DNA of 14,214 nucleotides from Candidatus Nitrosopumilus sp. (GTDB lineage: Archaea > Thermoproteota > Nitrososphaeria > Nitrososphaerales > Nitrosopumilaceae), in NCBI GenBank assembly GCA_011055585.1, contig DRGT01000099.1, positions 1 to 14,214 of the forward strand. Direction: 5' to 3'. Within the stretch, counting starts at the first letter, position 1. Each line of letters begins with the position of its first letter. Under the pieces are notes generated by a model, which did not search any database, had not been told where the DNA came from, and saw only the letters and a program-made list of their open reading frames with translations. Positions 1-7,896 of this stretch are shown here, piece after piece. A program made the translations under genes and the position numbers.

Positions 1-1874
1 AAAGTATACCAAAAGAAGCAAATGTTACAAAAATAGAATACGAAGGACCACGAATTGCACTTTACACTAATACTCCAAGATATCTAATGGAGAACAATGA
101 AATTATTTCAAATCTTGTAAATGTAATTAAAAAAAGAATTGTAGTAAGAACGGATGAATCCATTAGAAAATCAGAAGAAGAAGCAAGACAAATTCTCACA
201 CAACTAATTCCCAAAGAGGCTGATCTTCAAAGTACATTTTTTGATACAGCTACAGGTGAAGTCTCTCTGGAAGCAAAAAGACCATGGCTTCTCCATAGAA
301 ATGCGCAAGAATTCAATCATCCTGAAGTAACCGAAAAAATTGGCTGGAAATTAAGGATTAGAAAAGCAACAACAAATCCTTCTAGTACTATTCAGACAAT
401 AAATTACAATCTAAAAATCTCATCAGCCGACAGAAGTAAACAACTGAAACAGATTGGCGATGAAATCTTTAGGCCAAGATTAACCCAAAAATCTGAAGTT
501 TCATTATTTACTCTTGGAGGATTTGGTCAAGTAGGCCGTTCCTGCATGCTTTTGACCACTTCAGAAAGCAAAATTTTGATTGATTGTGGAATTAATCCTG
601 GAGCACGAACTCCTTCAGAATCTTTTCCTAGATTAGATTGGATAAACATTACACTTGATAATCTTGATGCAGTGGTAATTGGTCATGCACATCTTGATCA
701 CACCGGATTTTTGCCAGTTTTGTGCAAATATGGTTACAAAGGTCCTATCTATTGTACAGAACCAACACTTCCAATGATGAATCTGATTCAGCTTGACGCA
801 ATCAAAGTTGCATCTGCACAAGGTAGAACTCCAATGTATTCAGACAGAGACGTTAAACAAATTATGAAACAAGCAATCACCCTTCCTTATGGAACAGTAA
901 CTGATATTTCTCCTGACATTAAACTTGTTTTGGCAAATGCGGGCCACATTCTTGGTTCTGCCCTTTGTCATTTTCACATAGGAAACGGTGATCATAATTT
1001 TGTATACTCTGGTGACATAAAGTTTGCAAAAAGTATTCTATTTGAGTCAGCAAGTTGGAATTTCCCAAGAGTTGAAACTCTCCTAATTGAGAGTACTTAT
1101 GGTGCAAAAGAAGACATTCAGCCTTCAAGGCAGGAAGTAGAATCTGCCTTCATCAATGCCATAAACAATACTTTGACTGACGGAGGTAAGATCTTAATTC
1201 CTATTCCTGCCGTGGGTCGTGCACAAGAAATCATGATGGTTATAGATCATTATATGAAATCGGGTGAAATGGTTGAAGCGTCAGTATTTACAGAGGGTAT
1301 GATTTCTGAAGCATCTTCAATACACGAAGCTTATCCTGAATATCTTGCAAGAGAACTACGACAGAAAATTTTAGAAACTGATGATAACCCATTTGATTCT
1401 GAATACTTTACAAACATTGAACATCCTGATGCAAGAGAAGAACCTCTTCGTGACGGATCACCTTGCATAATTTTGGCTACATCTGGAATGTTAGAGGGTG
1501 GTCCTGTTCTAGAATATCTCAAAAACATTGCTCCTGATAAAAAGAACAAGATCTTGTTTGTATCATACCAAGTAAATGGTACACTTGGAAGACGAGTACT
1601 TGATGGCTCAAAACAAGTATCGTTGATGGGTAAAGAGGGAAAAGTACAAGTTGTAAACATTAACTGTGGCATTGAAAAGCTTGATGGATTTAGTGGTCAC
1701 AGTGATTATAACCAATTAATTTCATTTGTACACAAACTTAGACCAAAACTTCGTCGAGTTCTTGTTAATCACGGAGAGAGAAGAAAATCAGAAAATCTCT
1801 CAATGTCAATTAGAAGAATGTTTAGAGTAGCTTCTCATTATCCACAAATACAAGAAGCAATAAAACTATTTTAG
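1..1874 (+). CDS. fttA: Transcription termination nuclease FttA/aCPSF1 (5' partial)
   Basis: This is a KH-domain beta-CASP metallo-beta-lactamase ribonuclease, the archaeal CPSF73 relative that cuts nascent RNA after U-rich tracts and ends transcription. The frame is open from base 3 (reads SIPKEANVTKIEYEG), so the ATG at 87 is internal and the start lies upstream of the window. The visible part ends the N-terminal KH region (VVRTDESIRKSEEEAR), followed by the metallo-beta-lactamase core with HAHLDH at about 684-701, the beta-CASP insert (IPIPAVGRAQE, LATSGMLEGGP), then GFSGHSD near 1690-1705 and NHGE near 1768-1779, which carry the later catalytic histidines. All catalytic motifs I can check are intact. 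The stop overlaps the convergent SepF-like gene by 9 bp. The family call is very secure; the role comes from studied archaeal homologues. Confidence 0.95.
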   Translation, partial: SIPKEANVTKIEYEGPRIALYTNTPRYLMENNEIISNLVNVIKKRIVVRTDESIRKSEEEARQILTQLIPKEADLQSTFFDTATGEVSLEAKRPWLLHRNAQEFNHPEVTEKIGWKLRIRKATTNPSSTIQTINYNLKISSADRSKQLKQIGDEIFRPRLTQKSEVSLFTLGGFGQVGRSCMLLTTSESKILIDCGINPGARTPSESFPRLDWINITLDNLDAVVIGHAHLDHTGFLPVLCKYGYKGPIYCTEPTLPMMNLIQLDAIKVASAQGRTPMYSDRDVKQIMKQAITLPYGTVTDISPDIKLVLANAGHILGSALCHFHIGNGDHNFVYSGDIKFAKSILFESASWNFPRVETLLIESTYGAKEDIQPSRQEVESAFINAINNTLTDGGKILIPIPAVGRAQEIMMVIDHYMKSGEMVEASVFTEGMISEASSIHEAYPEYLARELRQKILETDDNPFDSEYFTNIEHPDAREEPLRDGSPCIILATSGMLEGGPVLEYLKNIAPDKKNKILFVSYQVNGTLGRRVLDGSKQVSLMGKEGKVQVVNINCGIEKLDGFSGHSDYNQLISFVHKLRPKLRRVLVNHGERRKSENLSMSIRRMFRVASHYPQIQEAIKLF

Positions 1875-4610: not shown

Positions 4611-4886
4611 ATGAAATTTCATTCCAAAATTAGAAGGATGGATAGCTGTGATACTAGGACTAGAGCATACAAAAATGGAAAAACATTTGATCAGTGCAAA
4701 GAACTTGCAGAAAAAATGAACTCTTTATTGCAACAACAGATAAACGATAAAGGTAAAGTTCTGTGGAGTGATCTTTTAGCAAAAGTAGATCATGATGAAC
4801 TTGTTTACAAACTCACTTTGAAATATCTACGACGTGATGGATTTGATATAGGAAACTCAAAAAATCCTGAAATTAAAAAATTTTAA
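4611..4886 (+). CDS. Small helical protein, unknown function
   Basis: I do not recognise this 91-residue protein. It begins with a basic, Cys-containing stretch (RRMDSCDTRTRAYKNGKTF). It continues as predicted helices (DQCKELAEKMNSLLQQQ and KVLWSDLLAKVDHDELVYKL) and ends in a basic tail (LTLKYLRRDGFDIGN). The size and charge pattern would suit a small winged-helix or RNA-binding protein, but no diagnostic motif is present. The ATG at 4638 (MDSC) is an alternative start that would remove nine residues and leave more room for a promoter. Its 3' end overlaps the convergent exported-protein gene by 4 bp. Confidence 0.6.
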   Translation: MKFHSKIRRMDSCDTRTRAYKNGKTFDQCKELAEKMNSLLQQQINDKGKVLWSDLLAKVDHDELVYKLTLKYLRRDGFDIGNSKNPEIKKF

Positions 4887-5491
4887 ACACGAATAATTCC
4901 GTTATTGATCAACCATTCAATACCAATTAAAAATTCATCATCAGTGATTTTATTGTCAACCCAATATCCAGCACTTGTTTTTATCCAACTTGGAATAGTT
5001 ATCGTAGATTCATCTTCTGAAGACTCTACATATGGTACATGAATGACACCATTTTGAATTAACCATTGAAACCCATTTACTAAATCAACATCCGAAGTAA
5101 ATCCGTCTACCCAATATCCAGTAGTAGTTTTTATCCATGAGGGGATAATCGCAGGTGTAGGATCATTAATTCCTGTTTTAGCTTCTTCCTTACTCTCTTG
5201 AATTTCTAATTCAATATAGTGTAAACTTCGCTCAAGAAGTTTTTGCATTCTATCCTCTCCTTCATAACTCCATAACGAATCTTCATACAAGCTTCCACAA
5301 ACTCTTGATTCAATTGAATAATGATGATTTTTTATGAACCACTGAATACCTAATTCTTCATACAGAGGATAAAATTGATGACAAAATTCTATATCATTCA
5401 TTGAAAATTCAAATTCAGCTGCAAAAACATTGGTTACATTTGGAAATAATAAAATTAATCCAAAAACAAATATTATTTTTATTAAAGTCAT
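4883..5491 (-). CDS. Exported protein, two-Cys module plus two GYW repeats
   Basis: This protein of 202 residues begins with a clear signal peptide (MTLIKIIFVFGLILLF, likely cut after NVFA), so it is exported or membrane associated. Residues about 37-83 form a module with C37, FYPLY, WFIKNH, C65 and LWSYEGEDR; the exported protein encoded at 7207-7896 has the same module. An acidic helix follows. Then come two 37-residue repeats starting IPSWIKT with GYWVD and ending WLIQNGVIHV or WLINNGIIRV. This repeat is common at the ends of exported thaumarchaeal proteins; its function is not known to me. I start at the ATG at 5491, not the TTG just before it. A TTTATC element lies about 31 nt upstream. 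The gene diverges from the TrmB-family regulator gene. Confidence 0.75.
   Translation of the reverse strand: MTLIKIIFVFGLILLFPNVTNVFAAEFEFSMNDIEFCHQFYPLYEELGIQWFIKNHHYSIESRVCGSLYEDSLWSYEGEDRMQKLLERSLHYIELEIQESKEEAKTGINDPTPAIIPSWIKTTTGYWVDGFTSDVDLVNGFQWLIQNGVIHVPYVESSEDESTITIPSWIKTSAGYWVDNKITDDEFLIGIEWLINNGIIRV
4886..5146 (-). repeat. Two 37-residue coding repeats (IPSWIKT..GYWVD)
   Basis: Within the exported protein, 5036-5146 and 4886-4996 encode two units of exactly 37 residues separated by 13 polar residues. Shared positions include IPSWIKT, GYWVD, a D/E-rich middle, W-L-I-x-N-G and a final I-x-V. The spacing and identities indicate a true domain duplication. Confidence 0.85.
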
Positions 5492-5653
5492 CAAATATTT
5501 TTCTAAAGAATCCTTACTTGATAAATTCTTCTACTAATTCATTAACAACTATTAGAAAAAATTACTAAAATTATGAAATTTTTAGTGTAAACCTCACTAG
5601 AATATTTCCATACCTCTCATATGATTAAATCACAAAATTTCTCAAATTTCTGT

Positions 5654-5671
5654 GTAATATGGAATTATTAC
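5654..5671. promoter_or_regulatory. Operator-like palindrome 1 (GTAATA-N6-TATTAC)
   Basis: The 18-bp sequence GTAATATGGAATTATTAC has perfect 6-bp arms around a 6-bp spacer. It lies 130 bp upstream of the TrmB-family regulator start and exactly 44 bp (about four helical turns) upstream of a second copy with the same arms. The size and symmetry fit a dimeric TrmB-type regulator, whose known Pyrococcus site TATCAC-N5-GTGATA is of the same kind. Confidence 0.65.
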
Positions 5672-5697
5672 ATTAACCAAAATTCGTGACTATTTTT

Positions 5698-5715
5698 GTA
5701 ATAACGCATTATTAC
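5698..5715. promoter_or_regulatory. Operator-like palindrome 2 (GTAATA-N6-TATTAC)
   Basis: The sequence GTAATAACGCATTATTAC repeats the arms of palindrome 1, with symmetry extended by TT and AA on the two sides to 8-bp arms. It ends about 16 bp before the centre of the likely TATA box of the regulator gene, so a bound protein would sit just upstream of the basal promoter. In TrmB-type regulation that position is linked to activation. Confidence 0.68.
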
Positions 5716-5725
5716 AATTGATCCC

Positions 5726-5736
5726 TTTTTAATACA
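5726..5736 (+). promoter_or_regulatory. Likely TATA box of the TrmB-family gene
   Basis: The element TTTTTAATACA is the best TATA-like match upstream of the regulator. It predicts a transcription start near 5757, which would leave a short leader of about 25 nt. That leader contains GGGAG at 5772-5776, seven bases before the TTG start. Confidence 0.45.
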
Positions 5737-5783
5737 AATTTTCATGTTTGGTTTTTAGACATGGTTAGTCTGGGAGTAAAAAG

Positions 5784-6629
5784 TTGACACAAGAACTGCA
5801 TGATCATCTCATAGAAAAAAACACCTCTATTATTAGCATCGGTGAATTAAGTTCTCAAATTTCAAATCTATTAGACTTAGAAGAATTAGATGCACAACTT
5901 TATCTTAACTTGTTAAGGATGGGTCCTGTTACTGCAAGTACATTAGCAAAAGAACTTAACATTGATAGAACAAAAGCTTACAGAACTATTGATAAGTTGT
6001 TACATCTCAAAATTGTTTCAACAACTTTTTCAAAACCAAAACTTTGTATTGCAAACAAACCAGAAGATGTTTTAAAAAATATTCTTGATATAAAACAATC
6101 TCAAGTAGAAAAAATTAGAAACGTAAAAGATTATCTGATTACAGCTATTAAAGAATCAATTCCAACAAATTGTAAAAGTAGTTTACCAAGCTTCCATATT
6201 ACACAAGGAACTGATCATATCTATTCTGAAGTTGAAAGATTATTAGAAAATGCTACAAGTACTGTCTACATTGCCACTACAATAAAAGACCTAGCAAAAA
6301 TGTATCACACAGATATTCCAGAAAAAATTAAAATCTGTGAAAGAAATGGAGGAAAAGTTTGTTTACTTACACACTTATCAGACAAAAATCATTTACCATT
6401 TGTTAAAAGATTTAGTGCAACTGAAACACGACTAGGTGATCTTAGTTCAAAGGGAAGAATGATTGTTGAACAAGGAAAACAAATGATAATGTCTGATGCT
6501 ATGTGGGAAGATTCTGATGCACAAAATGTTCAATATGATTATGCTATTTGCACAGACTCAAATGAAATAGTTAATAACATTTTCATGCTGTGTTCTTTCC
6601 TATGGAAGAATGGTAAATCTTTAAAATAA
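5784..6629 (+). CDS. TrmB-family transcriptional regulator
   Basis: This is a 281-residue TrmB-type regulator. Residues about 27-95 form a winged helix-turn-helix (YLNLLRMGPVTASTLAKELN, then IDRTKAYRTIDKLLHLKIV). A helical linker covers about 95-130, and the C-terminal effector domain covers 135-281 (SEVERLLENATSTVYIATTI and later WEDSDAQNVQYDYAICTDS), the layout of TrmB proteins that bind a sugar or other small ligand. The ligand cannot be read from sequence. I keep the TTG start because GGGAG lies seven bases upstream and no in-frame ATG precedes the HTH; the ATG at 5761 is out of frame and opens a tiny upstream ORF. Two GTAATA-N6-TATTAC palindromes in the upstream gap suggest autoregulation, and a related site after the gene suggests a neighbouring target. 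Confidence 0.88.
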   Translation: MTQELHDHLIEKNTSIISIGELSSQISNLLDLEELDAQLYLNLLRMGPVTASTLAKELNIDRTKAYRTIDKLLHLKIVSTTFSKPKLCIANKPEDVLKNILDIKQSQVEKIRNVKDYLITAIKESIPTNCKSSLPSFHITQGTDHIYSEVERLLENATSTVYIATTIKDLAKMYHTDIPEKIKICERNGGKVCLLTHLSDKNHLPFVKRFSATETRLGDLSSKGRMIVEQGKQMIMSDAMWEDSDAQNVQYDYAICTDSNEIVNNIFMLCSFLWKNGKSLK

Positions 6630-6707: not shown

Positions 6708-6732
6708 AATAAAAATCACAGAAAATATCTTT

Positions 6733-6750
6733 GTCATATAACCATATGAC
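6733..6750. promoter_or_regulatory. Operator-like palindrome 3 (GTCATA-N6-TATGAC)
   Basis: GTCATATAACCATATGAC has the same 6-6-6 layout as palindromes 1 and 2 with one symmetric base change per arm. Together with its flanks (6726-6758) it agrees with the region around palindrome 2 (5691-5723) at 24 of 33 positions, including the run ACAATTGA right after the palindrome. It ends about 16 bp before the centre of a TATA-like box, the same distance as at palindrome 2. Confidence 0.62.
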
Positions 6751-6762
6751 AATTGAACATCA

Positions 6763-6770
6763 TTAAATAA
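6763..6770 (+). promoter_or_regulatory. TATA-like box TTAAATAA before tiny ORF
   Basis: TTAAATAA centred at about 6766 predicts a transcription start near 6792. It follows palindrome 3 closely. The same octamer, on the other strand, precedes the 29-codon ORF that converges on this transcript. Confidence 0.5.
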
Positions 6771-6791: not shown

Positions 6792-6953
6792 TTGAAAATA
6801 CAAACAATCTGTCAAGGGGTAAAATCAGGAATTAGTTTGAAAGGCTTTAGATTGGATGTACTAGACATCGGTTTCATTGTTCTTCTAGGGATGATGACCT
6901 ATCAAGGACAGACCATACAGGCTATATGCTCTACTGGTTTCTGTGGATTTTAG
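6792..6953 (+). CDS. Candidate tiny membrane-like protein (38 or 53 codons)
   Basis: This open frame has no homologue that I recognise. From TTG at 6792, beside the predicted transcription start, it encodes 53 residues. From TTG at 6837, which has AGGA six bases upstream, it encodes 38. The shorter form has a basic start (MKGFR), a hydrophobic stretch (LDIGFIVLLGMM) that is short for a membrane helix, and a C-terminal part with two cysteines (AICSTGFCGF). Base composition is clearly less AT-rich than the surrounding gap, which favours function. The regulated-looking promoter upstream supports a transcript here, but a non-coding RNA or a gene remnant is possible, since both proposed starts are TTG. 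Confidence 0.4.
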   Translation: MKIQTICQGVKSGISLKGFRLDVLDIGFIVLLGMMTYQGQTIQAICSTGFCGF

Positions 6954-7206: not shown

Positions 7207-7896
7207 TCAAAATAAAATTCCATTTGGTAGGAATACGTTAAGAATTACATTTCTGATCATGTTTGCTAAATCTGTAAGAACTTTAATCTGTTCCATGATG
7301 ATAGCATCTTTTTTACGAACCTGCTCTTGCAATTCTGCTACTTTGACTTCTAGCTCTACCATTTTATCGAGGCGTGTATCCTGGGCAATAATACTTGATT
7401 CTGATGGAAGTTCAATCGATGTGGCAACAGGGGTTGGTCTTTGATTTTGTTCTTCTTTAAGCTCTATTAGCATATCAGATAAAACAACAAGTCTGTCCTT
7501 ACCATCATACTTCCATATATCATCATTGTAAATCATTAAACAATCAGCTGCCTGACTGGCGTGTTTTTGTATTAGCCACCGATTTTCATCAAGTATTTTG
7601 TAACTAGGATACCACTCTTCACACTTTTGCATAACTTGAATTCTTTCTCTTTCTTTAGCAAGATCATAGTGATTGTTATTCATTTTACTGTACTTGTTGT
7701 TAATGACTGTCTCACAATTACGTTTTGCAACAGTTGTTTCTGCAACTGTTAAGTCTTCATTTGCATCAACTTCAATCCAACAGGCTAGGATCTCCTCTCG
7801 TATTTTTGCATCCTCATCCGAAATATTTTGGGCATAAGCTGGGATAACCATAGAGATAAGGACTAGAAATGCGAGGGGATACCCAAGCTTTATCAT
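7207..7896 (-). CDS. Exported coiled-coil protein with two-Cys module
   Basis: I do not recognise a named family for this 229-residue protein. A signal peptide (LGYPLAFLVLISMVIPAYA, cut before QNIS) sends it out of the cytoplasm. Residues about 30-90 are helical with a Cys pair at 39 and 61. Residues 92-135 hold the module also found in the exported protein at 4883-5491: C92, EEWYPSY, RWLIQKH, C119 and IWKYDGKDR. A proline-containing linker follows, then a heptad-like coiled coil at about 175-205 (KMVELEVKVAELQEQV). The C-terminus is short and hydrophobic (MIRNVILNVFLP) and might touch the membrane. The ATG has a minus-strand CTTTATG element about 27 nt upstream (7921-7927). Confidence 0.7.
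   Translation of the reverse strand: MIKLGYPLAFLVLISMVIPAYAQNISDEDAKIREEILACWIEVDANEDLTVAETTVAKRNCETVINNKYSKMNNNHYDLAKERERIQVMQKCEEWYPSYKILDENRWLIQKHASQAADCLMIYNDDIWKYDGKDRLVVLSDMLIELKEEQNQRPTPVATSIELPSESSIIAQDTRLDKMVELEVKVAELQEQVRKKDAIIMEQIKVLTDLANMIRNVILNVFLPNGILF

Follow-up and report, generated by a model that had tools for sequence, protein, structure and literature searches.

Three palindromic sites lie within 1.1 kb around the gene of a TrmB-family regulator in the window, by which we mean the whole analysed stretch of 14,214 nucleotides from Candidatus Nitrosopumilus sp., and we put the chances slightly above even that these sites would serve a TrmB-family regulator as operators. The product of 5784-6629, acting on its own gene and on that of a 53-aa protein, is the most likely candidate for this regulator. 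Such an arrangement of operators around a regulator gene is of a familiar kind. The three sites are:

5652..5673: site 1, GTGTAATATGGAATTATTACAT, with 7-bp perfect arms TGTAATA/TATTACA
5696..5717: site 2, TTGTAATAACGCATTATTACAA, with 9-bp perfect arms
6731..6752: site 3, TTGTCATATAACCATATGACAA, with 9-bp perfect arms

The first two sites had been described in an earlier note on this DNA as GTAATA-TGGAAT-TATTAC (5654-5671) and GTAATA-ACGCAT-TATTAC (5698-5715), which proved correct letter for letter, as did the observation that their spacers are unlike while 12 of 12 arm bases are the same. These palindromes form the inner part of a more extended site that reads TGTMA-N10-TKACA, with arms exceeding those first given. 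Site 2 is laid out as TTGTAATAA-CGCA-TTATTACAA, with 9-bp arms around a 4-bp centre, and site 3, absent from the earlier note, as TTGTCATAT-AACC-ATATGACAA (6731-6752): these two are the only perfect 9+4 palindromes in the window. The fourth base pair is A-T in sites 1 and 2 and C-G in site 3, both arms being altered together. The distance of 44 bp between sites 1 and 2 was also as described, but the claim that both face the same side of the helix did not hold: with a helical repeat of 10.5 bp per turn, 44 bp correspond to 4.2 turns and thus to an offset of ~70 degrees. Sites 1 and 2 are contained within a 41-bp direct repeat of 71% identity, and the flanks of sites 2 and 3 outside the palindrome are weakly alike (14/29 on the right side, a value matched by ~4% of random intergenic pairs). 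The full TGTMA-N10-TKACA pattern is present in three copies within 1.1 kb and nowhere else in the window; the same half-sites at other spacers give 0 occurrences at 4-9, 11-14 and 16, and 1 at 15. A comparison with Rfam returned zero matches at gathering scores.

The window palindromes are not a product of chance. Of 2000 dinucleotide shuffles of the window, 1 contained two 6-N6-6 palindromes with identical arms no more than 100 bp apart, and 5 contained such a pair once spacers of 2-10 were permitted; perfect 9+4 palindromes averaged 0.19 per shuffle, with at least two in 1.7% of shuffles. Across 250 family genomes, TGTMATA-N6-TATKACA is found 28 times and a control pattern 13 times, as against 3 copies of the former in 1.1 kb of the window; the window cluster therefore lies far outside the background. 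The reading of the motif as the mark of a lineage-wide regulon was rejected, with GTMATA-N6-TATKAC falling below the control in the genomes of 14 relatives (10 sites vs 20). Whether motif and regulator go together genome by genome was tallied by eye, and this line was likewise dropped: the regulator (E 1e-55) was found in 14 of the 21 genomes with the motif, 8 of the 13 with the control pattern and 86 of all 250. Among viral contigs, 0 of 31 pattern matches encode a relative.

The genes on either side of the sites are as follows:

5784..6629, + strand: TrmB-family regulator of 281 aa, the likely reader of the sites
6792..6953, + strand: conserved gene for a 53-aa hydrophobic protein downstream of site 3, proposed as a co-regulated target
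4883..5494, - strand: divergent gene whose product is of the secreted type by eye (its N-terminus being hydrophobic), a possible second target

The earlier assignment of the 5784-6629 product as a TrmB-type regulator was borne out by a PF01978 match of 45.1 bits (cut-off 25.6) and by TrmBL2 and TrmB as best Foldseek matches. The C-terminal effector domain PF11495 gave no match to this protein at E 0.001, and in a paralogue it falls just under its cut-off (21.3 vs 22.2 bits); the NCBIfam TrmB and TrmBL1 equivalogs are far under theirs (30.8 of 500 and 29.3 of 650 bits). On its sequence we class the protein only as TrmB-type, and not as a canonical two-domain sugar TrmB. The predicted structure has a mean pLDDT of 82.3 and a pTM of 0.51, and the best Foldseek matches include 5bpd, 3qph and phospholipase-D-type chains, the last for the C-terminal part. 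The model adopts the TrmB/TrmBL2 fold (a winged helix, a long helix and a C-terminal domain of PLD type), with a domain arrangement that is uncertain at a TM of about 0.4. TrmBL2 (PDB 5bpd) is its best fold match (Foldseek E 5e-13), but that entry is titled an archaeal chromatin protein, and the likeness is limited by 16-18% identity and this overall TM. In a tree of 89 homologues, the protein clusters with metagenomic proteins of 80-92% identity, whilst the nearest genome-encoded copies show 67-68%; the HTH region is strongly conserved across the family. TrmB-family paralogues are numerous in relatives, e.g. 9 matches in genome G003.

Judged by its sequence, the 6792-6953 frame is a real gene: the 53-aa protein has 4 relatives in protein databases (74-91% identity, the 91% match being from a Marine Group I thaumarchaeote), and a 58% identical homologue in genome G001 lies upstream of a branched-chain aminotransferase gene, as it does in the window. 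The C-terminal end of the protein reads CSTGFCGF, and hypothetical protein is the sole name noted for any of its relatives. A homologue of the regulator was not found within the 16 kb surrounding the G001 gene, and a search for the motif there was also fruitless, with none at the promoter and the best matches in the 3.1-kb locus carrying 2-3 mismatches. On the other side, the 4883-5494 gene and the regulator have a common intergenic region, which contains sites 1 and 2. The secreted-type proteins at 4883-5494 (-) and 7207-7896 (-), which flank the regulator region, have a 50-residue segment in common (32% identity, BLASTP E 4e-8). The first protein of the window (3-1874), which we take to be aCPSF1-like, shows 91% identity to the proteins that match it best in 400 genomes from this order.

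The position of the sites relative to the promoters is given by three further features:

5726..5734, + strand: TATA-like sequence TTTTTAATA, by eye, 8 bp after site 2
6762..6769, + strand: TATA-like sequence ATTAAATA, by eye, 9 bp after site 3
5761..5787, + strand: mini-ORF of 8 codons (MVSLGVKS), the TGA of which overlaps the TTG start codon of the regulator gene

Site 2 had been placed just upstream of the likely TATA box, in agreement with the TATA-like sequence that begins 8 bp past its end; the distance from palindrome centre to TATA-like start is 19.5 bp for site 2 and 20.5 bp for site 3. The overlap of the mini-ORF stop with the regulator start suggests that the two may be translationally coupled.

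The sites, their non-random occurrence, the identities of the genes and the recurrence of this operator class before some TrmB-family genes are shown directly, whereas binding, which protein reads the sites, autoregulation and its sign are inferred. In the proposed mechanism, a single dimeric winged-helix TrmB-family regulator would read all three palindromes, the dimer touching TGTMA and TKACA on either side of a 20-22 bp site. Through sites 1 and 2 it would control its own promoter and perhaps that of the divergent secreted-protein gene as well, and site 3 would give it control over the 53-aa gene's promoter. As a TATA-like sequence follows 8-9 bp after the end of sites 2 and 3, occupancy at either could recruit or block basal factors at the BRE; by analogy with TrmBL1/Tgr, activation is slightly favoured over repression.

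Conservation was addressed by the scan upstream of orthologues that the earlier note had proposed, and over the range covered its expectation failed: GTMATA-N6-TATKAC is found in 0 of 105 promoters of regulator homologues, the nearest (67-68%) included. These promoters were oriented, 300 bp each and taken without the window; their identity range reaches 67-68%, so that the 80-92% clade lies outside the set, which also excludes the loci L108 (contig end), L012, L031, L037, L041, L044 and L045 and does not comprise every homologue match. Control promoters (n=279) were drawn from 20 loci, 6 of them chosen for containing the regulator. The longer pattern TGTMA-N10-TKACA is present in 3 of 105 homologue promoters, barely higher than other spacers with 0-2 each. 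A looser core of the same geometry, TGT-N14-ACA, may partly rescue the earlier interpretation: it ranks 1 of 1344 dyads, occurring in 34 promoters compared to 6.9 expected (86 non-redundant of 107, window included), and is found in 41/106 homologue promoters vs 32/279 controls, whilst two such sites 20-60 bp apart occur in 15/106 vs 1/279. An alignment of 15 promoters from homologues of ~50% identity places TGT and ACA, at N14, in well-conserved columns, with at least one such dyad in all 15 and two at 29-30 bp in 7. Further TGT/ACA spacers are also high, however, both among the non-redundant promoters (N13 29/86, N9 28/86) and against controls (N9 39/106, N13 37/106 and N17 33/106 vs 25/279, 20/279 and 17/279). 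With N9, N13 and N17 enriched as well, the dyad score is inflated by common ancestry of the promoters, which explains part of the TGT-N14-ACA signal. Dyad symmetry at position 4, next to TGT/ACA, shows no excess in relatives (12/38 vs 32/98 background).

The operator class does recur before some TrmB-family genes. A rare exact match to the motif, in genome G005, lies 116 bp before a second TrmB-family gene of the type found at locus L069, the product of which matches PF01978 with 57.6 bits and shows ~23% identity to the window protein. Amongst the promoters of this second regulator (29 of 30 placed by tblastn), 4 carry TGTMA-N10-TKACA, with 8 sites in all (3, 1, 2 and 2), compared to 1/279 controls, and the half-sites at other spacers give 0 occurrences at 4-9, 11-14 and 16, and 1 at 15; the remaining 25 of 29 are without it. 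The four site-bearing promoters differ in sequence and yet retain the dyad at matching positions. These sites are the strongest sign that the site class of the window belongs to TrmB-family promoters. A match at L068 before a TrmB-like gene overlaps the start codon of that gene and was not counted as an operator. At L202 and its orthologues L203, L205 and L212, 3-4 TGT-N14-ACA dyads per promoter, some overlapping, precede a TrmB-family gene, with sequence varying at matching positions.

As the clearest recurrences precede a regulator of only ~23% identity, the reader could be a paralogue: in this case another TrmB-family protein, e.g. of the L069 type, would control the regulator gene and its neighbours, and the encoded protein would be a target. 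We regard this as possible, well below even. The full pattern stands, 1-3 times per promoter, before the other regulator in four genomes, relatives contain many paralogues (the 9 matches in G003), and the absence of the exact motif from all 105 promoters of the window protein's own homologues slightly lowers the odds of the encoded protein as reader and raises those of a paralogue. Against this, it is the regulator gene of the window itself around which the three sites are grouped, as is usual when the reader is local, and most promoters of the other type (25/29) lack the pattern.

An unrelated dimeric regulator of secreted or membrane protein genes, for which this locus would be one target, is unlikely in our estimation, although the window's divergent gene and 53-aa gene match such a description and a hydrophobic N-terminus is encoded at 12/21 gene starts near sites vs 76/321 in the background (Fisher p 0.0016, post hoc; the 21 starts are those no more than 250 bp away from any of the 24 sites outside genes, of 28 sites in all, in relatives). 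The motif is only about twofold over the control pattern (28 vs 13), so that perhaps half of these sites are due to chance, and the association with TrmB genes would be left unexplained. We consider it more improbable still that the sites have no function and arose by chance or through recent duplication, on a local scale, of AT-rich promoter DNA: the direct repeat around sites 1 and 2 (41 bp, 71% identity) and the lack of motif conservation among the homologues examined would fit, but every arm base is the same around unlike spacers, site 3 lies 1 kb away with a matched A-T to C-G change on both arms, and such a pair arose in 1/2000 shuffles.

Operators read by the encoded TrmB-family protein would have counterparts in known systems. 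TrmB of Pyrococcus/Thermococcus uses the operator TACT-N3-AGTA, with the repressor site at the BRE/TATA box; it is alike in its TrmB-type winged helix and its palindromic operator at the promoter (binding in the window being predicted) and unlike in half-site and spacing (PMC4158304). For TrmBL1/Tgr, the Thermococcales glycolytic motif TATCAC-N5-GTGATA lies upstream of BRE/TATA at activated promoters, and autoregulation of Tgr has been proposed (PMC4158304); the putative operators of the window are likewise upstream of BRE/TATA, but the half-site order is opposite, with TATCAC first there and GTMATA first, with N6, here. Halobacterium TrmB (VNG1451C), also an archaeal TrmB regulator, acts from upstream or downstream of the promoter through TACT-N7-8-GAGTA, an unrelated half-site (PMC4158304). 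TGTMA-N10-TKACA agrees with none of the motifs tabulated in PMC4158304 (TACT-N3-AGTA, TATCAC-N5-GTGATA, TACT-N7-8-GAGTA and two repeats ATAATACT). One tentative and rather doubtful generalisation is that Nitrosopumilaceae TrmB paralogues would have TGTMA-N10-TKACA as a common lineage-specific operator class, used singly, in twos and in threes, at some of their own promoters and at secreted or membrane protein genes. Judged by titles and the beginnings of abstracts, no TrmB operator in ammonia-oxidising archaea is apparent among the papers listed (at most 10-20 per search), and regulation in these organisms seems little mapped; a defined 20-bp candidate operator beside a regulator gene makes one expanded family of regulators directly accessible to testing and provides a starting point for locating its targets.

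Upstream of the regulator homologue in L005 and L047-L060, a conserved stretch resembles, by eye, a short upstream ORF: it reads about NHTKVLNAIxQNEPRVKRM and terminates near the regulator start.
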